From NCBI GenBank assembly GCA_000828975.1, contig AP014683.1, positions 3,181,700 to 3,245,699 of the forward strand: a DNA stretch of 64,000 nucleotides, given 5' to 3'. The translations under genes and the position numbers were made by a program. This DNA comes from Burkholderiales bacterium GJ-E10 (GTDB lineage: Bacteria > Pseudomonadota > Gammaproteobacteria > Burkholderiales > Burkholderiaceae_F). The notes beneath the pieces are model-generated. The model did not search any database and was not told where the DNA came from. It was given only the letters and a program-made list of their open reading frames with translations. This document shows, one piece after another, positions 31,270 to 64,000 of this stretch (the first letter of the stretch is position 1; each line of letters begins with the position of its first letter).

Positions 31270-33662
31270 TGCGACATGGCCGGGTTGGCCCCGGTCATCG
31301 CGGGGACGGAGCCCGGCGCCGGAGACGAGTCGTCGACGCCGATGCTGGCGATGCCGCCGTTGCCGGGTTGAAATTCCTGCAGGTAGACATCGCCGTTGAC
31401 CTGGACCACGCCCGGCGGCATCGGACGCACGGTTTCCGGCACCCCCTTCAGCATCCCGGCCATGTAGTCGATCCAGATCGGCAGGGCGAGGTCGCCGCCC
31501 GTTTCGTGCGCGCCGAGCGGCTTCGGTTGATCGAAGCCCACCCAGGACACGGCCACCGTGCCGCCGCCGTAGCCCGAGAACCACGCGTCATGCGACAGGT
31601 TCGTGGTCCCGGTTTTTCCGGCGATGTCGTCGCGATGGAGCACCGACGCGCGCTTGGCGGTGCCGTACCGCGTGACGTCCTGCAGCAGGCTGTTCATCAC
31701 GTAGTCGGTTCGGGCGTCGTACACCCGCGGCGCATTCTGTTCCGCGAGTTCCGGATGCGCCTGCATGAGGACGTGGCCGGTTCCGTCGGTGACCCGCTGG
31801 ATGAGGTAGGGATGCACGGCGTATCCGCCGTTGGCGATGATCGCGTACGCGCCCAGCTCCTGCCAGGGCGTGACCGCCCCGGCCCCGAGCGCCATGGTCA
31901 GGTACGCGGGGTTTCTGCCGGGGTCGAAGCCGAAGCGCTCGATGTACTTCTGGGCGTAATCCGGGCCGATGGCCTGCAGCACACGGATCGACACGAGGTT
32001 GCGCGATTCCGCCAGTCCTTCCCGCAACGTCATCGGTCCCTTGAAATCGGGCTCGTAGTCTTTGGGTTGCCACGGCGTGCTGCCGGTTTCCGCTGCCGGG
32101 ATGATGAGCGGCGCATCGTTGACGAGGGTCGTGGTCATCACGCCCTTTTCGATCGCGGCGGAAAAGAGGAACGGCTTGATGCTGGAACCCGGTTGCCGCC
32201 AGGCCTGCGTCACATGATCGAACTTGTTCAGCCGAAAATCGAAGCCGCCGACGAGCGCGCGCACCGCGCCGCTCCGGGCATCGGCGGCGACGAATGCCGC
32301 CTGCACCGCCGGCAGCTGCGTGATCGTCCAGTCGTCGTTGGCGCCGCGGGCGAGCCGGATGATCGAACCCGGCGTGATCCGGTGCGCGCGCGGCGCATGG
32401 CGCCGGAGCGCCGCGGCCACGAACTTCAGGCCGCCGCCCCGGATCTCGACGGTCGAGCCGTCGGCTAGGCGGGCGCGCACGGCGCGCGGCCCGGCGGCGA
32501 GCACCACGGCGGCCGGAAAGCCGGGAACCTCGGGCGCCGCGGCGAGGGCCGCGGCGATGTACCGCTTGCGCGCCTTGTCGTCGGCTGGGGCGTCGAGGTC
32601 GACGTGGCGTTCCGGCCCGCGGTAGCCGCGCAGCCGGTCGTAGGCCAGCACCTGCCGGCGCAAGGCGGCATAGGCCAGTGCCTGGGCACGGCTGTCGATC
32701 GTCGTGATGACGTTCAACCCGTACTCGTAGGCGTCCTCGTGATAGACGTTGGCGACCATCTGCCGGACCAGTTCCGCCGCGTACTCTGCATGAACCCCCG
32801 CATGGACTCCGGAAGCGGTGGTATTGGCGAAGGCGGCTTCGCTACCGCGGACGGAGATCGGCTGTGCCATCGCGGCATCGTATGCCTTCCGGTCGATGTA
32901 GCCGTCCGCCAGCATGCGCCCGAGCACGTAGTGCTGGCGCGCGCGCGCGAATTTCGGATTGACCTGCGGATTGCCGGTGCTGGGCGCCTTGGGCAGTTCG
33001 GCAAGCATGGCGCACTCCGCCAGCGAAAGCTTCGACAGCGGCTTGCCGAAATACGTCTGCGCGGCGGCGGCGAATCCGTAGGCCCGCTGGCCGAGGTAGA
33101 TCTGGTTGACGTAGATCTCGAGGATGCGGTCCTTGGACAGTTCCGATTCGATCTTGACCGCCATCGCGATTTCATAAATCTTGCGCAGGTACGTCCGCTC
33201 GGAACTCAGGAAGAAGTTGCGCGCCACCTGCATCGTGATCGTGCTGGCGCCCTGGACCCGATGGCCGGACACGATGTCCGCGACCATCGCCCGCAGGATG
33301 CCGGCCGCATCGAAGCCGCCATGCTGATAGAAATTCGTGTCTTCCGCCGCAAGAATGGCTTCCTTGAGCGGCTTCGGGACGTCGCGGAGGGCGACGAACC
33401 GGCGCCGCTCTTCGCCGAACTCGCCCAGCAGGACGCCGTCGGCGCTCCAGACGCGCAGCGGCAGCTTGGGCCGGTAATTGGTCAGCGCCTCGGTGGACGG
33501 GAGGCGGTGGTAGGCGAGTGCAAACAGCATCGCGCCGAGGAACGCCGCGCACGCGGCGCCGGCTCCGATGACGACGACGAGAAAGCCGATCAGGCGCATG
33601 CCGGCGCCGGGGGTCCGCCGCGATGGGCCGGGGGCAGGACCTGCAGGTCGATCCGATTTCAC
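31245..33662 (-). CDS. mrcA: penicillin-binding protein 1A (class A)
   Basis: An 805-residue bifunctional peptidoglycan synthase. One N-terminal membrane anchor (IGFLVVVIGAGAACAAFLGAMLFALAY) precedes the GT51 transglycosylase (EDTNFYQHGGFDAAGILRA, GASTITMQVARNFFL) and a transpeptidase with SxxK in GSSIKPF, and KTG in AGKTGTTNLSHDAWFSGYG. The start used is the GTG at 33662; an ATG at 33599 (MRLIGF) is an alternative, and neither has a strong ribosome site. The gene is divergent from pilM, the usual Burkholderiales arrangement (ponA-pilMNOPQ). Confidence 0.93.
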   Translation of the reverse strand: MKSDRPAGPAPGPSRRTPGAGMRLIGFLVVVIGAGAACAAFLGAMLFALAYHRLPSTEALTNYRPKLPLRVWSADGVLLGEFGEERRRFVALRDVPKPLKEAILAAEDTNFYQHGGFDAAGILRAMVADIVSGHRVQGASTITMQVARNFFLSSERTYLRKIYEIAMAVKIESELSKDRILEIYVNQIYLGQRAYGFAAAAQTYFGKPLSKLSLAECAMLAELPKAPSTGNPQVNPKFARARQHYVLGRMLADGYIDRKAYDAAMAQPISVRGSEAAFANTTASGVHAGVHAEYAAELVRQMVANVYHEDAYEYGLNVITTIDSRAQALAYAALRRQVLAYDRLRGYRGPERHVDLDAPADDKARKRYIAAALAAAPEVPGFPAAVVLAAGPRAVRARLADGSTVEIRGGGLKFVAAALRRHAPRAHRITPGSIIRLARGANDDWTITQLPAVQAAFVAADARSGAVRALVGGFDFRLNKFDHVTQAWRQPGSSIKPFLFSAAIEKGVMTTTLVNDAPLIIPAAETGSTPWQPKDYEPDFKGPMTLREGLAESRNLVSIRVLQAIGPDYAQKYIERFGFDPGRNPAYLTMALGAGAVTPWQELGAYAIIANGGYAVHPYLIQRVTDGTGHVLMQAHPELAEQNAPRVYDARTDYVMNSLLQDVTRYGTAKRASVLHRDDIAGKTGTTNLSHDAWFSGYGGGTVAVSWVGFDQPKPLGAHETGGDLALPIWIDYMAGMLKGVPETVRPMPPGVVQVNGDVYLQEFQPGNGGIASIGVDDSSPAPGSVPAMTGANPAMSQWLQYERH

Positions 33663-52200: not shown

Positions 52201-53546
52201 CAGCGCGACTCCTCATCGGGTTTATCGGTCAGCAGCCTGCGCAGCGCCAGGCCGGGGGTGGGCTGCGATCCGGGCTGGGCCTGGGCCTCCAGAGTGCGGG
52301 AAGGCCGATTGCGGCGCACGAAGCAGTTGGCGTAGGCATCGACCGGCTTGGCGCGGTGGATGAAGACGCTGTTGTGCCAGACCTCGATGCCGCGGCCGGC
52401 GGGGGCGGCCGGGTCGAAGCGCAGGGTGACGGTCTCGTTGACGAGCGAGGCATCGACCTCGAAGACGGTGCCGTTGAGGCTGACCGTGCGATCGCGGTGC
52501 ACGCGCCGCTTGGCCTCGAAGAGGAACAGGTCATCGAGATCGAGGCGCGGGTCGGGTGCGCGCAGGTGCTCGGCGCACTGGGCCCAGCGCTCGAGCGGAG
52601 TCTGTCCATCGAGTCCGCGGTGCGGGGTGCGGTGATACTCGCCCTCGACCCAGGCCCACAGACGGCGGTTGAGCGCATCGAGACTGGCGGTGTCCTCGGC
52701 GCTGAGGCGCGAGAGCAGTTGGGAGCGTACGGTACGGAACCAGCGTTCCTGCTTGCCCTTGCCCGCAGGCTGGTAAGGGCGGGCGTGGATCAGCGCAACG
52801 CCCAGCTTGGCGCAGACGAGCGCGAGGTGCTGCGAGCGGTAGTTGGCGCCGTTATCGACGAACAGGCGCTGGGGGATCGAGCGGCGCATCAGGGCCTGCT
52901 TGAACACGGGCAGGAACGCGGCCGTGTTCTCCGACAGGGCGAAGGCGCAGTACGGCACGACGCGGGTGGCATCGTCGATGAACGCGATCAGGTAGGTCTT
53001 GCGGCGGCTTGCGCCGACGCTCACCGTCGGGCCGTGCATGACGTCGCTCATCCACAGCTGACCGGGCTGCGCGTATGCGAAGCGCCGGCGATCCTGGTCG
53101 GTGGGTTGCTCGGCGCCCTTGTGCATCAGGCCGGCACGGCTGAGCAGGCGGTGCACGGTGGTCCTGGGCACGTCCTGCTCGGGTCCGATCGCGCCTTGCT
53201 TGCGCAGGGTGTCGATGAGCAGCGGGATCGACAGCCCGGGCTGCTCGTCCTTGAGGCTGAGCAGCGCGTCGGCCACGGCCTGGGGCAGCGCACGGGATTG
53301 GCCGCGGTCGGATCGCGGCTTGGGCACCAGCGCGTCGAAGCCGCCGCGCCGGTACGACTGCAACCAGTCGCGCAAGGTCTCGGTCGCCACCCGGGTGCGC
53401 GTGGTTCCCGGGATGACGTAGGACTGTTCGGCCTTGCGGGCGAGCAGCGCGTACAGGCCCGGCATGGCGGGCGGACGGTGGATGAGGTCGGCGATCAGGC
53501 CGTAGCGAAACAGCGCCACGGCCCGGCCGGGATCGGGCTCGGACAT
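52200..53546 (-). CDS. DDE transposase with Mu-type C terminus
   Basis: A 448-residue integrase-core transposase. N-terminal helix-turn-helix (TETLRDWLQSYRRGGFDALV), then the acidic triad Asp in LWMSDVMHGPTV, Asp in RLFVDNGANYRSQ and Glu in GKGKQERWFRTV, and a C-terminal beta-barrel (DRTVSLNGTVFEVDASLVNETVTLRFDP) of the Mu transposase type. A paired ATPase gene downstream supports a TniA/TnsB-like role. Confidence 0.88.
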   Translation of the reverse strand: MSEPDPGRAVALFRYGLIADLIHRPPAMPGLYALLARKAEQSYVIPGTTRTRVATETLRDWLQSYRRGGFDALVPKPRSDRGQSRALPQAVADALLSLKDEQPGLSIPLLIDTLRKQGAIGPEQDVPRTTVHRLLSRAGLMHKGAEQPTDQDRRRFAYAQPGQLWMSDVMHGPTVSVGASRRKTYLIAFIDDATRVVPYCAFALSENTAAFLPVFKQALMRRSIPQRLFVDNGANYRSQHLALVCAKLGVALIHARPYQPAGKGKQERWFRTVRSQLLSRLSAEDTASLDALNRRLWAWVEGEYHRTPHRGLDGQTPLERWAQCAEHLRAPDPRLDLDDLFLFEAKRRVHRDRTVSLNGTVFEVDASLVNETVTLRFDPAAPAGRGIEVWHNSVFIHRAKPVDAYANCFVRRNRPSRTLEAQAQPGSQPTPGLALRRLLTDKPDEESR

Positions 53547-53582
53547 CGGATCGGCTCCTTGAGCAAGATGGGAGCCGCGACA

Positions 53583-54290
53583 CTACGGCGCCTGAGCCGG
53601 CGGATCAGCCCCCATGTGTTGTTGGTCGAGCCGTTTGCGTCCACCGGCACGAGCAGCCGGTGGCGCAAACCCGACGAACCGGGGCAACTCGTGCAGGTAC
53701 TCGGCGGCAAGGGCGCGGCCGTGCACCAGCACGCAGGCGCACCCCAAATGCGCCCGCAACGGCTCGACTCGCGGCAGACAGCCCCGCAGCCGCTCGGGCC
53801 ACAGCGTGATCCAGCATTGGAATGCCATGCGCGCCGGCCGCAGCCGTCGCCTCAGCCAGCGCAGCGCGCTGGGTAGGCTGATGTCGTCGGGCCGCAGCAG
53901 CGCCGCGGCCTGCGCAAGGCTTGGGGATCGCTCGACGGCGGCCACGACCCGCTCGATGTCGGCCAGCGCGCCCGGAAACCTCGCCGCCAGGCAATCGGGC
54001 AGCAAGGCGAACGTGCAGTGTCCCTGCGGGCAGTACCAGCGGGCGATCCGTGTCCCGACAGGGGTGACGCGTGCATAGGTGCCGTTTCGGTGCAGTCCGC
54101 AGCCGCCCTTCGGGTGCAGCGGACACCTCTCGAGACTTGCCTGCCGCCACCCCTGTCGGGTAACGTACTCCTCGCTGGTCAGCCCCGACGCGAATCGAAG
54201 CAGCACCAGCACCGGCCCGGCGGGGCCGTGTACCCCGCCGGGCCACCCCATTCCATGTGATCGCGCAAGCCTACCGCCGATCGCCGTCAC
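53583..54290 (-). CDS. zinc-ribbon protein of the transposon (DUF6431-like)
   Basis: A 235-residue protein with a Cys/His cluster (ERCPLHPKGGCGLHRNGTYARV...RWYCPQGHCTFALLPDCLAARF, about 50-100) that looks like a zinc ribbon, followed by a helical arginine-rich region. It precedes the transposase gene by 36 bases. The position recalls TniQ, but the sequence does not; it may recognise target or ends. The start could also be the ATG at 54251. Confidence 0.6.
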   Translation of the reverse strand: MTAIGGRLARSHGMGWPGGVHGPAGPVLVLLRFASGLTSEEYVTRQGWRQASLERCPLHPKGGCGLHRNGTYARVTPVGTRIARWYCPQGHCTFALLPDCLAARFPGALADIERVVAAVERSPSLAQAAALLRPDDISLPSALRWLRRRLRPARMAFQCWITLWPERLRGCLPRVEPLRAHLGCACVLVHGRALAAEYLHELPRFVGFAPPAARAGGRKRLDQQHMGADPPAQAP

Positions 54291-54352
54291 GGTCCAAAAC
54301 GTCCGTTGCCAAATGGCAACCGCGGCACAGCGATCAACATCAATCAGGAGAA

Positions 54353-54375
54353 GCGGGGGGCCTGCCGCCCCCCGC
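54353..54375. repeat. 23-base perfect hairpin, second copy
   Basis: Reverse complement of 11366-11388: a 9-base GC stem with a 5-base loop, here between the first gene of the transposon and its right end. The shared flanks (CTCCCC-rich on one side, TCTCC on the other) mean the common block is more than 30 bases with a few mismatches. Confidence 0.6.
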
Positions 54376-54519
54376 TCCCCCCGCCGCTCGAGAAATACCC
54401 TTCAGAAACCCCTCACCCCCGCCAGCGACCCGCTCTCAACCACCGCAGTCCACCGCTCACCGGGGACGCAATCCGGCATCCAGAGAATCGCGGATTGCGA
54501 ATTAACGCGGGAGACAACA

Positions 54520-54640
54520 CCAAGTGGACGGAGATGAAGCCGTGGGTGCGGTGCAGTCCGTGGGGCACGGTGAATTTTCGGCCCATGCTTCGTTCCTTTT
54601 TCAGGTCGCGCTCGTTCGTCACGGCCATGCGCGCGATCGA
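54520..54640 (-). pseudogene. cas7: type I-C cas7 (csd2) remnant, upstream part
   Basis: Reading leftwards: SIARMAVTNERDLKKERSMG then RKFTVPHGLHRTHGFISVHL, the highly conserved Cas7c segment (typical form ...MGRKHTVPYGLYR.HGF.SAHLA). The frame runs straight into the transposon end at 54520 and resumes at 50924 with the expected next residues (ARQT). Everything upstream of it (the first half of cas7, and cas8, cas5, cas3) is missing. Confidence 0.7.
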
Positions 54641-54744
54641 AAAAAGGCAACAATGCGTGGAGATTGTTTCGGCAACCCCTTGTCTTTCTGCGAGACTTGC
54701 GAAGCAAGAACTTCGATGCGGCGGGCGCGTCCCGCTGCATCGAT
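54641..54744. other. leader-side region of the CRISPR array
   Basis: About 100 bases between the cas7 remnant and the first repeat. It holds a strong hairpin that ends two bases before repeat 1 (54713-54743, about 13 base pairs with one G-T), a smaller one at 54696-54708 (CTTGC/GCAAG), and, read on the minus strand, a weak stem followed by six T (54668-54640). No gene. This is where a leader should lie, given the direction of the repeats. Confidence 0.45.
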
Positions 54745-54889
54745 GTTGTAGCTCCCTCTCTCACCCCGGAAGCCTACAATCAGGGGATACGGGCATCGCA
54801 AAGACCCGAATGTTGTAGCTCCCTCTCTCACCCCGGAAGCCTACAATCTGCAGGCGGCGCAATTGCAGGCGCAAACGCGTTGTAGCTCC
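54745..54889 (+). CRISPR. type II-C CRISPR array, upstream segment (repeats 1-3, third repeat interrupted)
   Basis: Repeats begin at 54745, 54812 and 54879, exactly 67 bases apart. The unit begins GTTGTAGCTCCCTCTCTCAC and ends GGAAGCCTACAAT, 36 bases, and is always followed by C, so it may be counted as 37 bases with 30-base spacers. The third copy is cut after GTTGTAGCTCC by an IS66 element. The repeat closely resembles Neisseria type II-C repeats. Confidence 0.95.
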
Positions 54890-54936
54890 GTAACTGTCCG
54901 GGAATCGGCGTTCCTTGACGACGCGGGGGGATTGGG

Positions 54937-55473
54937 TCAGAGGTCGACGACGTGCTGGAGGAGCGCGTAGGCAACGCGCCAGAGGCCGTCGTCGCATTCC
55001 AGGGATGCGGTTTTCTGGTTCCGGCGCACGACGCGACCGAACCGCGTGTGGTGATCGCGGCCGACGAAGCTGACGGCATCGCCGATCTTGAAGTCTTCTC
55101 GTGCGGGACGACGATGCGCCGGCCTGGGTTGAGCATCCGCGTCGATGATCTCGACCGTGTCGGTGTCCGTCGCGCCGAGATCGATCGCGGCGTATGGGAC
55201 GCCAGACCAACGGGTGTTCTGATTTGCGTCGTCGATCGTCAGATCCCGGTCGCGCAGCGCGACGATCTTGCCGGTATGGGTTGTGGCGTCGTAGTCGCTG
55301 AAGAATTGCACCGTCATTCCGAGATGCAGGTGCTTGCGCACATCGAGGATGCGCCTGGGTTCGCTGCGCAGTTTGCGGATCGCGACCTCGATTCGGTAGA
55401 GGTCCAGCGTCTTTGCCTGCGGCAGGTTGGCGATGAGTGTGGCGAGCTCGGGATCAAACGGGGTTGCAGTCAC
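54937..55473 (-). CDS. IS66 passenger protein with two SH3-like modules
   Basis: A 178-residue protein starting at a GTG inside the end of tnpC (20-base overlap). Two related stretches, LGMTVQFFSDYDATTHTGKI (about 51-70) and IGDAVSFVGRDHHTRFGRVV (about 132-151), each look like a small beta-barrel of the KOW/Tudor type, with a basic linker between. It lies inside the inverted ends, so it moves with the element. Not part of the classical IS66 set; function unknown. Confidence 0.65.
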   Translation of the reverse strand: MTATPFDPELATLIANLPQAKTLDLYRIEVAIRKLRSEPRRILDVRKHLHLGMTVQFFSDYDATTHTGKIVALRDRDLTIDDANQNTRWSGVPYAAIDLGATDTDTVEIIDADAQPRPAHRRPAREDFKIGDAVSFVGRDHHTRFGRVVRRNQKTASLECDDGLWRVAYALLQHVVDL

Positions 55474-57001
55474 CGGTGGGCTTCCAGTTGAAGGGCAGCA
55501 ACTCGTGCAGACGGTCGATGCGATGACCGTCGATGCGCTGCAGCACGTCGCGAAGGTATGCGTAGGGTTCCACACCCGCAAGTTTGCACGATTCGATGAG
55601 GCTGAAGGCAACCGCTGCGGCGTGTCCTCCGCGCTCGGATGCTGCGAAGAGCCATGCCTTTCTGCCTACGGCGACCGGGCGAATCGTTCGCTCGACCAAG
55701 TTGGAGTCCGGCGAAACGGTGCCGTCCGTGGTGAAGCGCATGAGCGCCGCCCAGTTCGAGAGCGTGTACGCGAACGCTTTGCCAAGGGGAGATCGCGGCA
55801 ACAGGCTCGGCTGGTGGTGGCACAACCACGCATAGAACTTCTCCAGCAGCGCAACGGTGTGCTTCTTTCTTGCCGCAAGCCGCTGGTCTGGCGTGGCGTC
55901 CTTGTACTCGGAGTCGACGAGATAGATGCCGCGGATGAACGACAGGGCCTCGCTGGCCAGAGGCGATGCTCCCGGCTGCGACGCAACCTCGAAGTAGCGC
56001 CTTCGCACATGCGCCCAGCATAGGCAATGCTTCGCCAACCCCGTGGCAAAGGTTGGGTGATAACCGTTGTAGTCGTCGGCTTGCACAAAGCCGCGGTACC
56101 CCTTCAGGAACCGGGTTGGGTGGATCGCCTCCCGGGTTTCGGTGAACTCGAAGTACGCCGCCTTGGGGTAGGCGATCCAGTTTCCCTGGGGATCTTGTCT
56201 CGCACCGCTGCTGACGTACACCCAGAGCCTTGCGGTGCGCGATCTTCGTCGACCCTCCTCGACGAGCTTCAGTGTCGTGTCGTCGGCAAACATCCCGGGG
56301 GCGCCCAGAACGTGCGCCTTGAACGCGGGCATCAAGACGGCGAGCTTCTCCGTGCTTGCCAGGGTCCAGTCGTCGAGCGTCGTGCGCGCCAGATCGACTC
56401 CGTACCGGGCGAAGATCTTCTCCTGGCGGGCGAGCGGAATTCCGTCGCAGTACTTGGACACCAGTACGTGCGCGAGCATCCCGGCGCTGGCGTTGCTCTT
56501 GGGCAGCGGCGAAGGTTGCGCATCGGCCACGACGATCGAAGTAATTCCGTCCTTGGTGCAGCGATACTTCGCCCGCGCGTGGTCGATCACGAATACCTTC
56601 TGCGGAATGACGTCGAGCGTGGAGCTGACGACTTCGCCGATGAGCACGATCCGGTCGAATCCGGCCTTCTGATCGTCCGTGAGGTCATATTCCTTGCGGA
56701 CCCGCGGCAGGTGTGCCGGAAGCGCTGGACGTCCGCGACGCTTGCGCTCGTGCGCGGCAACCGTCGTCGTCGGGAGCTTCGGCGGCGCCGGGGGAATGGG
56801 AAGATCCTCGGTGAAGAGCAGCGCCTGGCCTGCGAAGCGCTCCGAGCGCGACCCGAAGGTCATCTGCTTCATCTTCGCGAGCTGGGCGCACAGCGACTCG
56901 AGCACTGCGGAGAACTGTTTGCGCTGCTCGGCGATCACTTCGAGCAGCGCATCGACATCACGAGGAAGAGATTCGATGTCGAGGGCGGCGATCGAGTGCA
57001 T
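55454..57001 (-). CDS. IS66 transposase TnpC
   Basis: The 515-residue DDE transposase of IS66: N-terminal coiled coil (VDALLEVIAEQRKQFSAVLESL), zinc-finger-like region, then the catalytic residues in MFADDTTLKLVEEG, GFVQADDYNGYHP and DSNLVERTIRPVAVGRKAWLF. The ATG at 57001 lies within one arm of a 10-base inverted repeat. The frame is complete. Confidence 0.92.
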   Translation of the reverse strand: MHSIAALDIESLPRDVDALLEVIAEQRKQFSAVLESLCAQLAKMKQMTFGSRSERFAGQALLFTEDLPIPPAPPKLPTTTVAAHERKRRGRPALPAHLPRVRKEYDLTDDQKAGFDRIVLIGEVVSSTLDVIPQKVFVIDHARAKYRCTKDGITSIVVADAQPSPLPKSNASAGMLAHVLVSKYCDGIPLARQEKIFARYGVDLARTTLDDWTLASTEKLAVLMPAFKAHVLGAPGMFADDTTLKLVEEGRRRSRTARLWVYVSSGARQDPQGNWIAYPKAAYFEFTETREAIHPTRFLKGYRGFVQADDYNGYHPTFATGLAKHCLCWAHVRRRYFEVASQPGASPLASEALSFIRGIYLVDSEYKDATPDQRLAARKKHTVALLEKFYAWLCHHQPSLLPRSPLGKAFAYTLSNWAALMRFTTDGTVSPDSNLVERTIRPVAVGRKAWLFAASERGGHAAAVAFSLIESCKLAGVEPYAYLRDVLQRIDGHRIDRLHELLPFNWKPTGDCNPV

Positions 57002-57022
57002 GCATCCAAAACGGATGCATGC
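56998..57022. promoter_or_regulatory. hairpin over the tnpC start codon
   Basis: GCATGCATCC and GGATGCATGC with a five-base loop form a perfect 10-base stem. In the minus-strand transcript the tnpC ATG falls in its 3' arm, so folding would hide the start codon and limit TnpC synthesis until ribosomes on tnpB arrive or open it. Confidence 0.45.
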
Positions 57023-57062
57023 CGCGCCACGTTGACAGCGCAACCGCGATCAACGAGAAAAA

Positions 57063-57410
57063 CTACGCGACGCGCGATGCGTTCACGTGTGCGATGCGCT
57101 TTGCGCGCGAGAGGTCGATTCCCTCGAGAAACGCCATGAGTTCAGCCATCGACAAACCACGCGAGGCCAGCATGTGCGGTGCCGGAAACCGCCCCCGTTC
57201 CAGGCGCTTGTAGAGCATCACGAAACCGGTGCTGTGCCACCACAGCATCTTGACCTTGTCTCGGCGGCTTCCGATAAAGACGAACACATGGCCGCTGAAG
57301 GCGGAGTGCGAAAACGCATCCGTCACCAGGCGCAGAAGACCATCGACCCCGCGGCGCATATCCACCACGTCGCGGTATACGAACGCTTGTACCGCGGGCG
57401 ACAGAATCAT
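57063..57410 (-). CDS. IS66 accessory protein TnpB
   Basis: 115 residues (MILSPAVQAFVYRDVVDMRR ... FVFIGSRRDKVKMLWWHSTGFVMLYKRLE), the IS66 Orf2 family required for transposition. The ATG at 57410 overlaps the tnpA stop as ATGA. A longer open frame upstream is spurious, since it overlaps tnpA. Confidence 0.9.
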   Translation of the reverse strand: MILSPAVQAFVYRDVVDMRRGVDGLLRLVTDAFSHSAFSGHVFVFIGSRRDKVKMLWWHSTGFVMLYKRLERGRFPAPHMLASRGLSMAELMAFLEGIDLSRAKRIAHVNASRVA

Positions 57411-57775
57411 GCCGGCGTCGCAATGCGCGCAAGGATCGAATCGACGATTCTGCCCGCTGCGGCACCCGAGACGCGAATCCGCATCGCACCGACGTTCAAC
57501 TCGACCGATACGGATTCCGTAGGTTGCGGTGCGCTCTCGCGGATGGGTAATGGCAAGAACCCCTTGCCCGCCGGGGTTCGATTCCCCTTCGTCGGCGCCG
57601 CACCCAGGCGCTTGCGCCATTTGCCGAAACTGCTGCGGGGTACGCCGCGTTGCGCGCAAAACGCCGATACCGTCTGCCCAGACGCACGCTGCTCCGCGAT
57701 CAACCCATTCCAGGTTTCCTCATCGCGCCGCGCACGCTTGCGGGTCCACCCAAGATCAACCGATTCCGACTCCAC
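57407..57775 (-). CDS. IS66 accessory protein TnpA
   Basis: 122 residues with a helix-turn-helix N terminus (WNGLIAEQRASGQTVSAFCAQRGVPRSSFGKWRKRLG, about 22-58) and the basic-to-hydrophobic C terminus of IS66 Orf1. It is the first gene of the element. Confidence 0.88.
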   Translation of the reverse strand: MESESVDLGWTRKRARRDEETWNGLIAEQRASGQTVSAFCAQRGVPRSSFGKWRKRLGAAPTKGNRTPAGKGFLPLPIRESAPQPTESVSVELNVGAMRIRVSGAAAGRIVDSILARIATPA

Positions 57776-57852
57776 CGTCCGTCTCCCGAAAAAGACGGAA
57801 CGATGCCCGCGTCAACCGCCGTTGCCTATGCGGTCGATTCCCGGACAGTTAC

Positions 57853-58891
57853 GTAGCTCCCTCTCTCACCCCGGAAGCCTACAATCCTCTCGCTGAACTT
57901 GGGTCACTTGTGGAAGGTTGTAGCTCCCTCTCTCACCCCGGAAGCCTACAATCCAGGATCCCGCATTTGTGAGCACACCGGATGTTGTAGCTCCCTCTCT
58001 CACCCCGGAAGCCTACAATCTGCGGCTACTGTACGGGATCTGCGAGCACTGTTGTAGCTCCCTCTCTCACCCCGGAAGCCTACAATCTTTGCCATATCTG
58101 ACCGCCGCATTCGAAGGGTTGTAGCTCCCTCTCTCACCCCGGAAGCCTACAATCAATCACCCTCGGCGGACCAATAGGAGACTGGTTGTAGCTCCCTCTC
58201 TCACCCCGGAAGCCTACAATCCGGAACTCCCGGAATTGCAACCGGAGAGACGTTGTAGCTCCCTCTCTCACCCCGGAAGCCTACAATCTGTCCATATACC
58301 CACCACGACGGCCCTGCAGTTGTAGCTCCCTCTCTCACCCCGGAAGCCTACAATCCGTTAGCCGAAACACTTGCAGAAATGCCGCGTTGTAGCTCCCTCT
58401 CTCACCCCGGAAGCCTACAATCGGCTTGATCGTGATGTATGGCTTGATCTGGGTTGTAGCTCCCTCTCTCACCCCGGAAGCCTACAATCTGGATCGTTTT
58501 TCGGTCGCGCCGATCCACGGTTGTAGCTCCCTCTCTCACCCCGGAAGCCTACAATCAAAACGGGCGAATACCGTTGCCTCAAAAAGGTTGTAGCTCCCTC
58601 TCTCACCCCGGAAGCCTACAATCATACCCGCGCGTTGCCGTACACCTGCGCATGTTGTAGCTCCCTCTCTCACCCCGGAAGCCTACAATCCCATCAGGTA
58701 TCATCTCTCCGTCTCGTCTCGTTGTAGCTCCCTCTCTCACCCCGGAAGCCTACAATCTCGTCGGCGTCAAGTACGACTGTGTGATCGGTTGTAGCTCCCT
58801 CTCTCACCCCGGAAGCCTACAATCAACCCCATTTCAACTTGGCCGCCCGGAAGCGTTGTAGCTCCCTCTCTCACCCCGGAAGCCTACAATC
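57853..58891 (+). CRISPR. type II-C CRISPR array, main segment (rest of repeat 3, repeats 4-18)
   Basis: Repeat 3 resumes at 57853 (GTAGCTCCC...) and 15 complete repeats follow at exact 67-base steps from 57917 to 58855, the last ending at 58890. All copies look identical, including the final one, so no decayed end copy marks the old side. With the upstream segment the array has 18 repeats and 17 spacers. Each repeat ends in TACAAT, a possible -10 box, as in Neisseria, where every repeat starts its own crRNA. Transcription is inferred on the plus strand, towards the cas genes. Confidence 0.97.
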
Positions 58892-58903
58892 TGACTGTCG
58901 GGA

Positions 58904-58935
58904 AAACAGCGCCCCGCCTTGCCGGGGCGCTGTTT
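58904..58935. terminator. bidirectional terminator between array and cas operon
   Basis: A 13-base perfect stem (AAACAGCGCCCCG with CGGGGCGCTGTTT, loop of six) 13 bases after the last repeat. On the minus strand it is followed by TTTT and lies 19 bases after the original cas2 stop; on the plus strand it ends in GTTT and a T-run follows 10 bases later. It can end both convergent transcripts. Confidence 0.75.
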
Positions 58936-58953
58936 CGGTCTCGGATTTTTTGG

Positions 58954-59071
58954 TCAAAATAGAAGCATCTGGGTGGCCGGGACCGTTTTTTCCTGAAAAA
59001 GCGGAAGCCCCACCAGCAGGCGCATGCCGGCGTATTGTTTTTCCGTGACCGTCATGCAACGTACCGACCCC
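58954..59071 (-). pseudogene. cas2: cas2, C-terminal part (split by IS3-type element)
   Basis: Reading leftwards from the element: VRCMTVTEKQYAGMRLLVGL then PLFQEKTVPATQMLLF and a stop at 58954-58956. This is the normal Cas2 C terminus of type II-C systems (TEKQ...LLVG...). It continues the 60711-60950 fragment when one copy of the 7-base duplication is kept, giving a 110-residue Cas2. Separated from its start, it should not be translated as part of Cas2. Confidence 0.85.
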
Positions 59072-59136
59072 CCTGCGTCAGAATAGTTGTCGCCCGGATA
59101 GGTTTTTGGAATCCGGGGGCGCTATGAGGACGAGAA

Positions 59137-59610
59137 GTGGCGAAATACGGACAGGCATTCAAGGACAAGATGGTGGCGCGGATGCTGCCGCCGGAGAACA
59201 CACCAATTGAGGTTCTCGCGCAGGAGGCACGGGTGAGCGTCGGGACGCTGGAGCGTTGGCGCAGTGAATCGCTGTCCAGACCCGCTCGCGAGCGGGTCTG
59301 GACAGCGGCGGCGCGGCTGGAGGCGGTGCTGACGACGGCCGCGCTGGACGAGGCGTCGCGTAACGCCTGGTGTCGGCAAAACGGCGTGTACCCGCAGGAA
59401 CTTGCCGCCTGGCGGGAGGCGGCCACGCAGGCGTTGGCCGATCCGGAGGATATGCGCGCGACGCCGCAACAGACGCGAGCGGACCGGCGCCGGATCAAGG
59501 AGTTGGAACGGGAAGTCCGGCGCAAGGACAAGGCGCTGGCGGAGACGACGGCGTTGCTGGTGCTCTCAAAAAAACTCGAGGCGATCTTCCACAAGGGCGA
59601 GGACGAATGA
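59137..59610 (+). CDS. IS3-type transposase OrfA
   Basis: 157 residues with a GTG start: N-terminal helix-turn-helix (TPIEVLAQEARVSVGTLERW, about 22-41) and a C-terminal leucine-zipper-like coiled coil (RIKELEREVRRKDKALAETTALLVLSKKLEAI). A perfect 38-base palindrome sits within it. AAAAAAA at 59568-59574 (codons TCA AAA AAA) allows a -1 shift into orfB, the usual way IS3 makes its fused transposase. Confidence 0.85.
   Translation: MAKYGQAFKDKMVARMLPPENTPIEVLAQEARVSVGTLERWRSESLSRPARERVWTAAARLEAVLTTAALDEASRNAWCRQNGVYPQELAAWREAATQALADPEDMRATPQQTRADRRRIKELEREVRRKDKALAETTALLVLSKKLEAIFHKGEDE
59270..59307. repeat. 38-base perfect palindrome inside orfA
   Basis: CGCTGTCCAGACCCGCTCG followed directly by its reverse complement, with no loop. 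It is translated as part of OrfA (LSRPARERVWTAAARLE). Such long uninterrupted palindromes are unusual in coding DNA and could form a cruciform or a strong RNA hairpin. Confidence 0.8.
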
Positions 59611-60698
59611 TCGGACTGGAAGATCGCCGAATGATTGCCCGAAACGTGGAAGAGGCGCACGGCGCCGGCGCACGGCTGCGTCTGGCCTGCGAGACCGCCG
59701 GAATCGATTTGCGCACCCTGCAACGCTGGAAGGTCCAGGACGGGCTGCAAACGGGTGATCGGCGCCCGCAGGCAGTCCGCCCCGAACCGGCGCATGCGCT
59801 CAGCGCACAGGAACGCGAGGCGGTCCTGGCGACCGCCAACGAACCGCGCTTTGCCGACATGCCGCCAGCGCGGATCGTGCCGGCCCTGGCCGACGAAGGA
59901 ACGTACCTCGCCAGCGAATCGACCTTCTGCCGGCTGCTTCGGGCGCAAGGGCAGAACGCCCATCGCGGGCGATCCAAGCCTCCGCAGGCGAGCCGTGCGC
60001 CGAGCACGCACATCGCCACGGCACCGCGCGAGGTATGGTGCTGGGACATGACCTACTTGCCCGCGAAGGTGGCCGGCATGTGGTTCTACCTGTACCTGAT
60101 CATGGATCTTTACAGCCGCAAGATCATCGCCTGGGAGGTGCACGACACCGACGACGCCGATCATGCCGCCAAGGTGGTCCAGCGCGCGGCCTTGGCCGAG
60201 GGGATCGCCGCAAACGAGCAACGACCGGTCCTGCACGGCGACAACGGCTCCACGCTCAAGGCCACGACGGTGCTGGCGATGCTGCACTGGCTGGGCGTCA
60301 AGCCCTCGTACTCGCGCCCGCGGGTGAGCGACGACAACGCATTCGTCGAGTCCTTGTTCCGCACGGCAAAGTACCGACCGGAATTCCCGACTGGCGGCTT
60401 CCAGGACCTCGATGCCGCACGCCAGTGGGCGGCGCGATTCGTGCACTGGTACAACAACGAACACCGGCACAGCGGGATTCGGTACGTCACCCCGGCGCAG
60501 CGACATGCCGGTCAGGACGTCGAGATCCTCGCGGCGAGACACGATCTTTACCTGCAAGCTCGCAGCCGCAACCCGGCACGTTGGTCGCGCCACACGCGCG
60601 ACTGGACGCCGGCCGGGGCCGTCGCCCTGAACCCAGAGCGCGACTCCATCGTTGCCCAGGCCGGAATCAGGGTTCATAAACAGGTTCACGTTGTATGA
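59607..60698 (+). CDS. IS3-type transposase OrfB
   Basis: 363 residues with the rve core: Asp in EVWCWDMTYLPAK, Asp in VLHGDNGSTLKA and Glu in DNAFVESLFRTAKYRPEFP, plus HWYNNEHRHSGIRYVTPAQRH. Its own ATG overlaps the orfA stop (ATGA); the frame is also open upstream from 59370, which lets a -1 frameshift in orfA make an OrfAB fusion. Intact. Confidence 0.9.
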   Translation: MIGLEDRRMIARNVEEAHGAGARLRLACETAGIDLRTLQRWKVQDGLQTGDRRPQAVRPEPAHALSAQEREAVLATANEPRFADMPPARIVPALADEGTYLASESTFCRLLRAQGQNAHRGRSKPPQASRAPSTHIATAPREVWCWDMTYLPAKVAGMWFYLYLIMDLYSRKIIAWEVHDTDDADHAAKVVQRAALAEGIAANEQRPVLHGDNGSTLKATTVLAMLHWLGVKPSYSRPRVSDDNAFVESLFRTAKYRPEFPTGGFQDLDAARQWAARFVHWYNNEHRHSGIRYVTPAQRHAGQDVEILAARHDLYLQARSRNPARWSRHTRDWTPAGAVALNPERDSIVAQAGIRVHKQVHVV

Positions 60699-60710
60699 CC
60701 GAGGCGACAA

Positions 60711-60950
60711 CTACCTTGACGCGCGCCGCGACCCCTCCGGCGGCAGATTGTCGGAAAGGCGCGTCATGTGCTTGGTTTCCGCATCCCTGCCATTGATGAT
60801 CCGGCCGTATACCGACCACTGGATCATGTCGTAGCCATCGTTGAGCAGAAACTTGCGGAATTGCACATAGGCCCGCTTTTCGGCCTTGGTCACCATCGGC
60901 AGATCGAAGAAGACGAGCAATCGCATGTATCGCCTCGTCTCGATTCCCAC
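60711..60950 (-). pseudogene. cas2: cas2, N-terminal part with a foreign C terminus
   Basis: 79 codons: MGIETRRYMRLLVFFDLPMV ... SVYGRIINGRD ... LPPEGS is Cas2 (first 74 residues, with the N-terminal strand and Asp of the ferredoxin fold), but the last five residues (RRASR) and the stop come from the inserted element. The missing 36 residues are at 58954-59071. Cas2 needs its C-terminal strand to dimerise and to bind Cas1, so acquisition is probably lost. It follows cas1 without a gap; the start may instead be the ATG at residue 9. Confidence 0.88.
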
Positions 60951-61853
60951 TCAATACTCCAGGCGATGCGGCTGCAAGCCGATCAGGGCGGGCAGGTCCA
61001 GGTCTTTCGCATCCTTCTCATAGACGCGCACGAGACTTTCCACGGCGTATTCAATCGCGGAGAGAACGGACATTCTGCCTTGCGGCATGCCGACATCGGT
61101 GTTGAGCAACGCCACGAGGGCTTGTTTGTCTCCGGGGATCAAATCGCCTTCGGTCGATGCGGGATTCTTCATGACGTACAAATCGACCAGTGGCCGGAAC
61201 GGTTCGATCAGATCATCGGCGAGATTGAAGGAGTTTTGTTCGCTGTCGTGGAAGAGTCCGATCGTCGGATGGAGTCCGTGCGCCACCAACCCCCGCGCGA
61301 TCGCACCACGCAGGACCGCATACCCGTAATCGAGCGCCGCGTTGTTCCAGCACTCCTTGGCCCGATGGAAATCTTGCCCGAATAATTGAGCGAAATAAAA
61401 TGCTGCCGCTTGCGCCTCGAGGTTTTCCGGATCGCCGGAGCGAACGCGGCGGGCGTAGGATTGAAGGCGGTCGACTCCATCCCTGCCGCAAAATTCTAGG
61501 CAAGACGCTTGATTTTCGATCTTCCGCCGAATGATGCTCGCCCAGACTTGCTTTGCTGTCGGCCGTGCCACATCGAGTTGGCGCCGCATCATGCGTGTGG
61601 TACGCGAGTGGGAAAGAAACGGTAGGAATACGCCTGCGGGTTGATGGTTCTGCCCGGTCGCATACAGGCCGATTCCGTACTCCGCGCAGGCGGAGAGAAC
61701 CGGATGGGTGATCGTGATCTCACGATGGTTTAGGACGATAACCGCGATGTCCTCGAACGGTACGAAGGCAGTGTCATCCTGTTCGATGGCAAGCGAGTAA
61801 TGCTCCCGCCGCAGCTTTGCGGGGCGAGAGATCATGACGCTACGCCAGACCAC
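60951..61853 (-). CDS. cas1: Cas1 integrase, type II-C
   Basis: A 300-residue Cas1 that inserts new spacers with Cas2. The N-terminal beta domain is followed by the catalytic helical domain: Glu 146 in ENLEAQAAAFYF, His about 202 in TIGLFHDSEQ and Asp about 214 in LADDLIEPFRPLVD. All three metal ligands are present. It overlaps the cas9 stop by 14 bases. It is intact, but its partner gene cas2 is broken. Confidence 0.95.
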   Translation of the reverse strand: MVWRSVMISRPAKLRREHYSLAIEQDDTAFVPFEDIAVIVLNHREITITHPVLSACAEYGIGLYATGQNHQPAGVFLPFLSHSRTTRMMRRQLDVARPTAKQVWASIIRRKIENQASCLEFCGRDGVDRLQSYARRVRSGDPENLEAQAAAFYFAQLFGQDFHRAKECWNNAALDYGYAVLRGAIARGLVAHGLHPTIGLFHDSEQNSFNLADDLIEPFRPLVDLYVMKNPASTEGDLIPGDKQALVALLNTDVGMPQGRMSVLSAIEYAVESLVRVYEKDAKDLDLPALIGLQPHRLEY

Positions 61854-64000
61854 GACGGGTTTCCGGTGGGGCTGGGTACACGTTCCCCAGCGTATCGACG
61901 TGGAATTTCTCGACTGACAGCGCGGTTTTTACGCCGATCCCATCTATAAAGCCATCCTTTCCAATTCTCTGGTTGCGGTCATGTGCCCAAATGCTGACGG
62001 CGCCGGTAGCGCGATTACAGCCCGCGTAGTATCCGAAGTGCCTTTCCTTTTTCAAGGTGATTCTGACGAGATCATTTGGATATAGCGCAAACAAAAAATC
62101 GAAGTCGTGATTGTTGATTGGCGTCCACTCGCCTTCATCCTTGTAAGCGATAACCGCCCTGGTCGGTAGTTGCTTGGCAACTGCATGATGGACATACAGC
62201 GGAACAAGATGAAATTTTCCGTCCTTTTTGCTTCGGAAAATATCGACACGAAGCATGGTGTCGTTCTTGGCGACCCCACCGCGAACCGGAATGCCGGACA
62301 TCTTGTCGATGACCAGGGTTACCGTTCGAACAATCGGCCCGGTGGGATTGCCGTCGCGGTCCGGTTTCCGTAACGGGTTGTTGGGCGGGAATGCCTTTTC
62401 GCCTTTCCCGCCATGCGCTTCCAGGCGGGCGCGGATTGCTGCGTACAGTTTTTCGTTGCGATGGGGGTCGACTAGATTCTCGAGGTCGCGAAGGTTTAGC
62501 GCGGCGAGTGGGACTTTTTGCGTCACGCTTCCAACTTTTTTCAAGCGCTCCGTCTGGCGATAGATCGTGTCCTTGTGCGCGGCGCCGCCGTTGCGCCGTT
62601 GCGGCGCGCGGGAAACGAACATCGGCCGCAAGGTCTCCAGCGCTTCCGGCGGGTAGCTTCCCAAGCTTTGCATTCGTTCGCGCAGTTCCGCAGGGTCGTC
62701 CGTGTTCAGCCGCGTGAGGAGTTCGTCCCGGAAATAAGGCCATGGGCTTGGGAAATCCCGTTCGATTTGCCGATATTTCCCCGCGTCCACGATTTCGCCG
62801 GTTTCGAAATCAACGAAGCCAGTCCGAACTTTTTCCAACTCGTGTCGTCGCGCATAATCCGATAACCGCTTGACCATGCTCCGGCTGCAAGCGGCGATGA
62901 CGGCGGCGTCCAGGGCATGGTGACGATCACTGTCGCCGCGCACCTTGGCCAAACCCCATCGGGCGCGCAGGAACGCGGTCAGTTGCCCGCTCAGCACCAC
63001 ACAGGTCCGTTCCTCGCTCTCCTCCGCGAGCTTCAGAAAGCGCTCCACGTAATTTTTGAAAAACCTGCTGATGTAGCGGGTGTCGTTGAGGTTGCGATCC
63101 CGGAATTCCTCGGATCCCTTCCCGGAGAAATCCTTCCGCAGGAGCCGGGCGCGCTTCGCAAGGCGGTACGCCTTGTTGGTTTCGACAAATGCTTTGAACT
63201 CCCGCCACCGCGGACTTTCGCTTGTACCGTCGAGATATTCATAGGGAGTCCGGTTTCCTTTGTTACGGTTTTCTTCCGCCAGCACGAGCACTTTGTTGTT
63301 CTTGCTGTCGTCGAAGCTGCGCGAGTAGGGCAGGGCATGATCGACCTCCGCGTAGCCTAAGTCCCGCAGCACGCGATCAAGGTCGAGTGGCTTCAAGGAG
63401 TAGGCGCACTTTCCGCCCTGCTCTCTGTAGAGCAGGAATTTTTCGAACTCCCGGCTTTTGGGCTCGATTCCATATTCGGCGGCAAAGTCGATTTTGAGTT
63501 TTTCGTTCCGGTCTCGGTATTCCTCCTGCGCCCTCTTTACCTTGTTGCGCTCATCCCATGGGCGGGATAGGTCGCGCGCCATCTCGATATGCATCGAGGA
63601 AGGAGAACCGTACCGGCGTACAACCGAATTCACGACCGTACGGGCCTGATTGATGGCGCGTAGCACGACGGGGTTTCGCGGAACGTCGATGTCGTCTCGG
63701 AATACCATGCGCCCGTCCGTCGTGCGACCGGAGTACAACGGCGGCAAATACAGGCTCCGCTCATCCGTGTCTTTACGCAGATCGCTATGGTGGTATCCGG
63801 CTGCCAGGCATGCCTCGTCATATCGAAGGCCAGCCTCCATGTGTGGCACGATCTTGCGCAGCGCCTTTAGCGACAGATTGTGAAACGTGTCGAAGCTGAC
63901 TCCGCTCAGCGCCTGAACCATTTTCTCGCCGCCCGGGAGCGGTATCTTGCGTAGTTCCCGAAGGACTTCGTCGCCGTCCTTGAATACGGATAGAACCCAC
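61840..64000 (-). CDS. cas9: Cas9 nuclease, type II-C (N-terminal part outside the window)
   Basis: The last 719 residues are visible; the frame is open to the window edge, so RuvC-I, the bridge helix and most of the recognition lobe lie beyond it. RuvC-II Glu is in SSMHIEMARDL (near 63585), the HNH active site is EVDHALPYSRSFDDSKNNKVLVLAEENRNKGN (His near 63339), and RuvC-III is SDRHHALDAAVIAAC (Asp near 62910). The C-terminal wedge and PAM-reading domains (FHLVPLYVHH, HDFDFLFALYPNDLVRITLKK, FGYYAGCNRATGAVSIWAHDRNQ) resemble Neisseria Cas9. All visible catalytic residues are present. Confidence 0.96.
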   Translation of the reverse strand, partial: WVLSVFKDGDEVLRELRKIPLPGGEKMVQALSGVSFDTFHNLSLKALRKIVPHMEAGLRYDEACLAAGYHHSDLRKDTDERSLYLPPLYSGRTTDGRMVFRDDIDVPRNPVVLRAINQARTVVNSVVRRYGSPSSMHIEMARDLSRPWDERNKVKRAQEEYRDRNEKLKIDFAAEYGIEPKSREFEKFLLYREQGGKCAYSLKPLDLDRVLRDLGYAEVDHALPYSRSFDDSKNNKVLVLAEENRNKGNRTPYEYLDGTSESPRWREFKAFVETNKAYRLAKRARLLRKDFSGKGSEEFRDRNLNDTRYISRFFKNYVERFLKLAEESEERTCVVLSGQLTAFLRARWGLAKVRGDSDRHHALDAAVIAACSRSMVKRLSDYARRHELEKVRTGFVDFETGEIVDAGKYRQIERDFPSPWPYFRDELLTRLNTDDPAELRERMQSLGSYPPEALETLRPMFVSRAPQRRNGGAAHKDTIYRQTERLKKVGSVTQKVPLAALNLRDLENLVDPHRNEKLYAAIRARLEAHGGKGEKAFPPNNPLRKPDRDGNPTGPIVRTVTLVIDKMSGIPVRGGVAKNDTMLRVDIFRSKKDGKFHLVPLYVHHAVAKQLPTRAVIAYKDEGEWTPINNHDFDFLFALYPNDLVRITLKKERHFGYYAGCNRATGAVSIWAHDRNQRIGKDGFIDGIGVKTALSVEKFHVDTLGNVYPAPPETRRGLA

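Follow-up and report, generated by a model that had tools for sequence, protein, structure and literature searches.

An IS3-family insertion sequence in cas2 of a type II-C-like CRISPR locus of Burkholderiales bacterium GJ-E10

The cas2 gene is one of the two genes by which a CRISPR system records new infections. In Burkholderiales bacterium GJ-E10 it lies in two pieces on either side of an insertion sequence, which raises the question of how this arrangement arose and what part of the immunity encoded by the locus might have survived it. The window analysed here, a stretch of 64,000 nucleotides in whose coordinates all positions are given unless stated otherwise, corresponds to positions 3181700-3245699 of a one-contig genome of 3,276,549 bases, which is rated as 100% complete. 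At the right end of the window cas9, cas1 and cas2 are found in this order on the minus strand, followed by a CRISPR array on the plus strand. We consider it very likely that cas2 was the target of a transposition, probably a recent one, by an IS3-family element, with the loss of spacer acquisition and the probable retention of interference by the old spacers.

The break in cas2 and the rejoined protein

The two parts of cas2 and the boundaries of the insertion are as follows:

58954-59068, minus strand: 3′ part of cas2, the C-terminal 36 codons and the stop, including one copy of CGAC
59065-59068: left copy of the target site duplication CGAC
59069-60728, plus strand: IS3-family insertion sequence, 1660 bp, with ends taken from other copies and plasmid relatives
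60729-60732: right copy of the target site duplication CGAC
60729-60950, minus strand: 5′ part of cas2, codons 1-74 of 110, including the other copy of CGAC
60950 and 60926, minus strand: GTG start of cas2 and an internal ATG, respectively

The element sits in codons 73-74 of the 110-codon cas2 and is antiparallel to it. The frame running from 60950 to 60711 on the minus strand comprises 74 Cas2 codons; the element then contributes five residues, RRASR, as well as the stop (60711-60713), leaving a product of 79 residues in which the last 36 residues of Cas2 are replaced by five IS-encoded ones. Beyond the element, the Cas2 C-terminus persists with its own stop at 58954-59064, or 58954-59068 if the duplication is counted in. 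Both halves had been described in this way by the initial annotation, which further took CGACCCC to flank the element on both sides. These letters are indeed present at 59065 and 60729, but the duplication comprises only the 4-bp CGAC (see below). The empty site is identical whether the duplication is counted as CGAC or CGACCCC, and joining the flanks with one CGAC kept gives an open frame of 110 codons, as had been proposed for the one-copy join.

Comparison of the joined sequence with Cas2 families, which had been suggested as a check, identifies it as Cas2. Taken from the internal ATG onwards (102 aa), it covers positions 1-96 of 96 of the TIGR01573 profile with 79.1 bits, as against 56 bits over positions 1-64 of 96 for the broken N-terminal piece. 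The joined Cas2 further matches the PADLOC Cas2_II profile (E = 1.7e-40) and, with E values between 1.3e-18 and 2.6e-17, solved Cas2 chains in the Protein Data Bank. Intact cousins of the locus are found in a Rhodocyclaceae MAG (L026), in the Betaproteobacteria MAG UBA1934 (L027) and in G039, a genome of the same family as GJ-E10 (L030). All three resemble GJ-E10 in the order cas9-cas1-cas2 and in their very similar repeats, with identities to L026, L027 and L030, respectively, of 70, 67 and 65% for Cas9 and of 85, 78 and 67% for Cas1; unlike in GJ-E10, their cas2 is uninterrupted and directly follows cas1. The joined Cas2 is identical to theirs at 89, 83 and 76 of 102 positions and collinear with them (all are 102 aa from the internal ATG), the junction being free of gaps. 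Among four intact relatives 43 columns are invariant, 15 of which fall after the break in cas2.

In the cas2 of GJ-E10, L026, L027 and L030 the conserved MRLL/MRML is preceded, at a distance of exactly eight codons, by a start codon (ATG or GTG), while the more distant L028 is without this spacing. The spacing common to the four supports the 110-residue reading from the GTG, and a start at the internal ATG, which would give a protein of 102 aa, was dropped on account of it. A predicted structure of the intact L026 Cas2, with a mean pLDDT of 49, was left unused.

The uninterrupted form of cas2 is seen only in relatives more distant than the congeners of GJ-E10. A search for the empty site among the latter failed since none of the six carries the locus: the cas1-cas2 stretch was found in none of them, either by a DNA search or by a search with the Cas1 protein, in a set in which only two of the six are listed as at least 90% complete. 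This distribution suggests that the locus was perhaps gained by the GJ-E10 lineage or lost by the others.

The inserted element, its copies and the age of the insertion

The internal features of the element are:

59069-59094: 26-bp terminal inverted repeat on the left, with 19 of 26 positions matching the right end
59137-59610, plus strand: orfA, 157 aa, HTH_Tnp_1
59568-59574, plus strand: A7 run shortly before orfA ends; candidate site of a -1 frameshift
59607-60698, plus strand: orfB, 363 aa, rve integrase core; 4-bp overlap with orfA, in the -1 frame
60703-60728: right terminal inverted repeat, 26 bp

OrfB, which contains the rve and rve_3 domains, scores 191.3 bits against NF033516, the model of the IS3 family (cut-off 160), and 111.3 bits against the IS481 model, below the cut-off of 224. 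The transposase score, the overlapping frames with the A7 run, the duplication and the inverted repeats are together those of an IS3-family element, in agreement with the type first assigned to it. The A7 run at 59568-59574 might permit a -1 frameshift leading to an OrfAB fusion.

The genome holds at least four full copies of the element, identical letter for letter, along with one 145-bp fragment, as counted among the best 40 of about 150 first-look candidates. The full copies all begin with CCCCCTGCGTCAG and end with GCGCGCCG, and each of the four is flanked by a duplication of 4 bp, identified by eye as CGAC, CGGT, CCTG and ATCC. Further, relatives of the element are found on plasmids with 69-74% identity; 14 of the 20 records listed align over exactly positions 1-1660, and all three whose ends were examined (L054-L056) show 4-bp duplications. 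The ends of the other copies and of the plasmid relatives thus delimit the element as 59069-60728 and the duplication as CGAC. The 4-bp duplications at the three other copies and at L054-L056 rule out a 7-bp duplication CGACCCC, in which the extra CCC is a chance match of the target to the C-rich end of the element. The element was not found in the six congeners searched.

A separate observation concerns a perfect 38-bp palindrome within orfA, at 59270-59307, formed by two 19-bp arms with zero spacer. Across 11 aligned elements (that of GJ-E10 and 10 of the 20 plasmid relatives listed), seven keep 16-19 of the 19 pairs and the other four keep 4 to 10, and two pairs have changed on both sides yet still pair. 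This might point to a conserved hairpin, with the pair counts being uncorrected for the relatedness of the elements.

As regards the age of the insertion, the initial annotation had regarded it as recent. The identity of the IS3 copies supports this, as do the substitution patterns of the joined cas2, in which dN is far below dS in both halves, that is, the halves are without noticeable decay. Against L026 the dN/dS values are 0.06/0.79 for the N-terminal and 0.11/1.59 for the C-terminal half, and against L027 they are 0.15/1.60 and 0.10/2.19; dS against L030 is not computable for the N-terminal half. Such comparisons with relatives mostly record the time before the insertion, and hence they limit its age only loosely. 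Taken together, these sequence comparisons suggest that the insertion is probably recent.

The array and the remaining Cas components

Apart from cas2, the locus comprises the following:

54745-58891, plus strand: CRISPR array with 17 spacers, each of 30 bp, and with 37-bp repeats, of which 17 are perfect and one is split
54882-54889 and 57853-57860: 8-bp duplications GTAGCTCC flanking the IS66-family element
54890-57852, minus strand: element of the IS66 family (2963 bp), lying in the third repeat as counted from the cas2-distal end
58904-58935: probable terminator between array and cas2, formed by a strong hairpin
60951-61853, minus strand: cas1, 300 aa, type II, intact, TIGR03639 positions 1-278 of 278
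61840-64000, minus strand: in-window part of cas9, which runs on to window-equivalent position 65193

The effector appears to be preserved. Cas9 comprises 1117 aa, its frame being open throughout, including the sequence past the window, and it possesses both the RuvC and the HNH motifs. Its in-window part matches TIGR01865 with 476.5 bits. The PADLOC Cas9 profile is matched with 1e-200; HNH_4 and RuvC_III score over their cut-offs, and Cas9_RuvC and Cas9_a slightly under theirs. With Cas1 matching TIGR03639 over its full length (282 bits), the earlier claim that both proteins are intact is borne out. Additionally, just upstream of cas9 and on the opposite strand to it, an anti-repeat to the CRISPR repeat is found at genome position 3246924, past the window; it is followed, as judged by eye, by a hairpin and a T run, and is regarded as part of a putative tracrRNA. 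The gene set resembles that of type II-C, with a RuvC/HNH-containing Cas9, a type II cas1 and cas2 beside cas9 and a predicted tracrRNA anti-repeat, cas2 being whole in this set only after its halves are joined. Cas4 (PF01930) was not found in the genome by a search that was positive in 8 of 14 control genomes, and the Csn2 profile (PF09711) gave no match in the genome and likewise none in any of the 14 controls.

A complete second cas2 elsewhere in the genome, which had been named as the result that would speak against a disabled acquisition, was not found: PF09827 and TIGR01573 match only the broken gene, and PF09707, another Cas2 family, has no match in the genome, the same profile being positive in five of the 14 controls (two over the cut-off). 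The genome contains one Cas1, and a second adaptation module is accordingly not evident, although one might conceivably be encoded on a plasmid that the assembly lacks. With the cas2 frame interrupted and a second Cas2 not found, the working adaptation module of a type II-C system would seem to be lacking.

The array has itself been struck. The element within it encodes TnpB and TnpC (375.6 bits against NF033517 and 89.3 bits against NF033819), which with the 8-bp duplication are the marks of the IS66 family. At least nine copies, identical letter for letter, are present in the genome, and all nine found show, by eye, an 8-bp duplication. Mobile elements have thus hit the CRISPR locus twice, IS66 in the array and IS3 in cas2, probably as the result of two recent IS expansions. 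The IS66 insertion leaves 15 of the 17 spacers on the cas2 side. The sense of the crRNA appears to be that of the plus strand, directed towards cas2, and the newest spacers would be those adjoining cas2. This polarity rests on L027, where the outermost cas2-distal repeat has two mismatches and one other repeat has one, and on published papers, since all 17 repeats of L030 and all 17 unsplit repeats of GJ-E10 are perfect. The hairpin at 58904-58935 is probably a terminator; by eye, L027 and L030 likewise have a hairpin, of different sequence, in the gap between array and cas2. Rfam comparison of 53500-64000 returned the CRISPR repeat family under its gathering score and otherwise chance matches.

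No convincing protospacer was found in searches of phages and plasmids with 15 of the 17 spacers or in a scan of viral contigs with the 22-base cores of four of the 17. The phage search returned two records at E = 0.3, and the plasmid search gave no clear spacer match; its best match, on an Acidovorax temperans plasmid, was set aside as it is a 53-base stretch that repeatedly pairs with the repeats of the query rather than with the spacers. In the scan of viral contigs three of the four spacers were without a match, and the spacer at 58624-58653 agrees at 28 of 30 bases with the IMG/VR contig L053, within a gene made of short tandem repeats. Self-targeting was not detected among the best 40 of 86 candidates, the two short genome matches of the array query both lying inside the IS66 interval.

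The Acidovorax temperans plasmid NZ_CP117194.1 is of interest in its own right: at 32758-33593 it carries a lone stretch resembling the GJ-E10 CRISPR repeat, which adjoins an annotated cas2 (309 nt with the stop) and a short cas1 (390 nt), with no annotated cas9 in a 6-kb view. Here a related locus seems to have left a remnant in which the damage is reversed, cas2 being kept and cas1 cut.

Acquisition, interference and known systems

The likeliest state of the locus is one of "read-only" immunity, in which interference is possible and acquisition is lost. An IS3-family element would have transposed into the cas2 of an otherwise complete type II-C-like locus, duplicating 4 bp of the target. If Cas2 is lacking, assembly of the Cas1-Cas2 integrase is not expected, and in the absence of this integrase spacers should not be added. 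The loss of acquisition in GJ-E10 is thus argued by analogy with the type II-C system of Riemerella anatipestifer, in which, according to the available text, spacers were no longer acquired once cas2 had been deleted (PMC6008519). What would remain is Cas9 together with the array and the putative tracrRNA, so that the old spacers can probably still direct interference. Further, the IS66 insertion does not necessarily silence the array: in Flavobacterium psychrophilum CN46 an array is stated to be transcribed on both sides of an IS256 insertion, in a paper of which one section heading announces interference by the CN46 Cas9 (PMC10309648).

Among the alternatives, the one that deserves most weight, unlikely as it is, is that the whole locus is a decaying relic in which interference too has been lost. 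This is compatible with the insertion into cas2 as reconstructed here, but conflicts with read-only immunity. The two independent IS insertions in a single locus are in line with it, as is the want of convincing protospacers in the phage and plasmid searches with 15 spacers and the viral-contig scan with four. However, the frames of Cas9 and Cas1 are open, the locus has a putative tracrRNA, the 17 repeats are free of mismatches, and IS66, being at the cas2-distal end, leaves 15 of 17 spacers between itself and cas2; the reported transcription of both parts of the cut CN46 array, together with the section heading on Cas9 interference, also argues against such a relic (PMC10309648). It is improbable, on the other hand, that read-only immunity was itself selected, with the loss of cas2 being favoured, for example by less self-targeting during an IS burst, and interference remaining under selection. 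Still less probable is a locus that stays adaptive through the truncated 79-residue Cas2 supporting some acquisition. The N-terminal piece does score 56 bits over positions 1-64 of 96 of TIGR01573, but it lacks the stretch with 15 of the 43 columns invariant in the four intact relatives, and the Riemerella cas2 deletion, a full deletion rather than a truncation, is reported to abolish acquisition (PMC6008519).

The intact duplication, from which the empty site would return exactly, is what a reversible switch could exploit, the precise exit of the element restoring cas2 in part of the population. An empty-site copy is, however, not seen in the single assembly. Transposition in the IS3 family is generally regarded as a copying process, which would leave the donor copy in place and counts against such a switch, making it very improbable. 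Least probable of all is an artefact of assembly, in which two places were misjoined at a repeated IS; the element is multicopy, but the 4-bp duplications match and the two cas2 halves flank it in frame and in the correct order. The reading preferred here hence remains that of a transposition into cas2 with acquisition lost and interference by the old spacers probably kept.

If so, spacer acquisition would have been knocked out cleanly and by natural means in GJ-E10, next to an effector that appears intact, and the strain could serve to test how long a Cas9 system retains its memory after updating has ceased. The inactivation of cas genes by IS elements is as such already documented, and the split cas2 is an ordinary but clean addition to these cases. 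Sheng et al. 2023 recorded, in one database, 163 IS transpositions into cas genes involving 20 IS families and 57 genera (PMC10359306). The cases described in its accessible text resemble GJ-E10 in that an IS with a target site duplication lies in a cas gene, but the experiments there concern the loss of interference, whereas in GJ-E10 the adaptation gene cas2 is struck and the effector is intact, which is the less usual aspect. No precedent for an IS in cas2 was confirmed in the literature examined, and the per-gene list of PMC10359306, placed in its supplements, may hold such cases. A system without any cas2, with another gene in its place, is described in the available part of PMC3519859. 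The CN46 locus of Flavobacterium psychrophilum is likewise II-C and carries two different IS with target duplications, one of them in the array; as far as the accessible text goes, the other lies between the tracrRNA and cas9, with Cas1 and Cas2 described, while in GJ-E10 it is cas2 that is split (PMC10309648). The Riemerella anatipestifer cas2 deletion strain is comparable as a II-C system without a working cas2 in which the loss of acquisition has been shown; there, per the available text, the deletion was engineered and tested in the laboratory, whereas in GJ-E10 the insertion is a natural one read from the sequence (PMC6008519).
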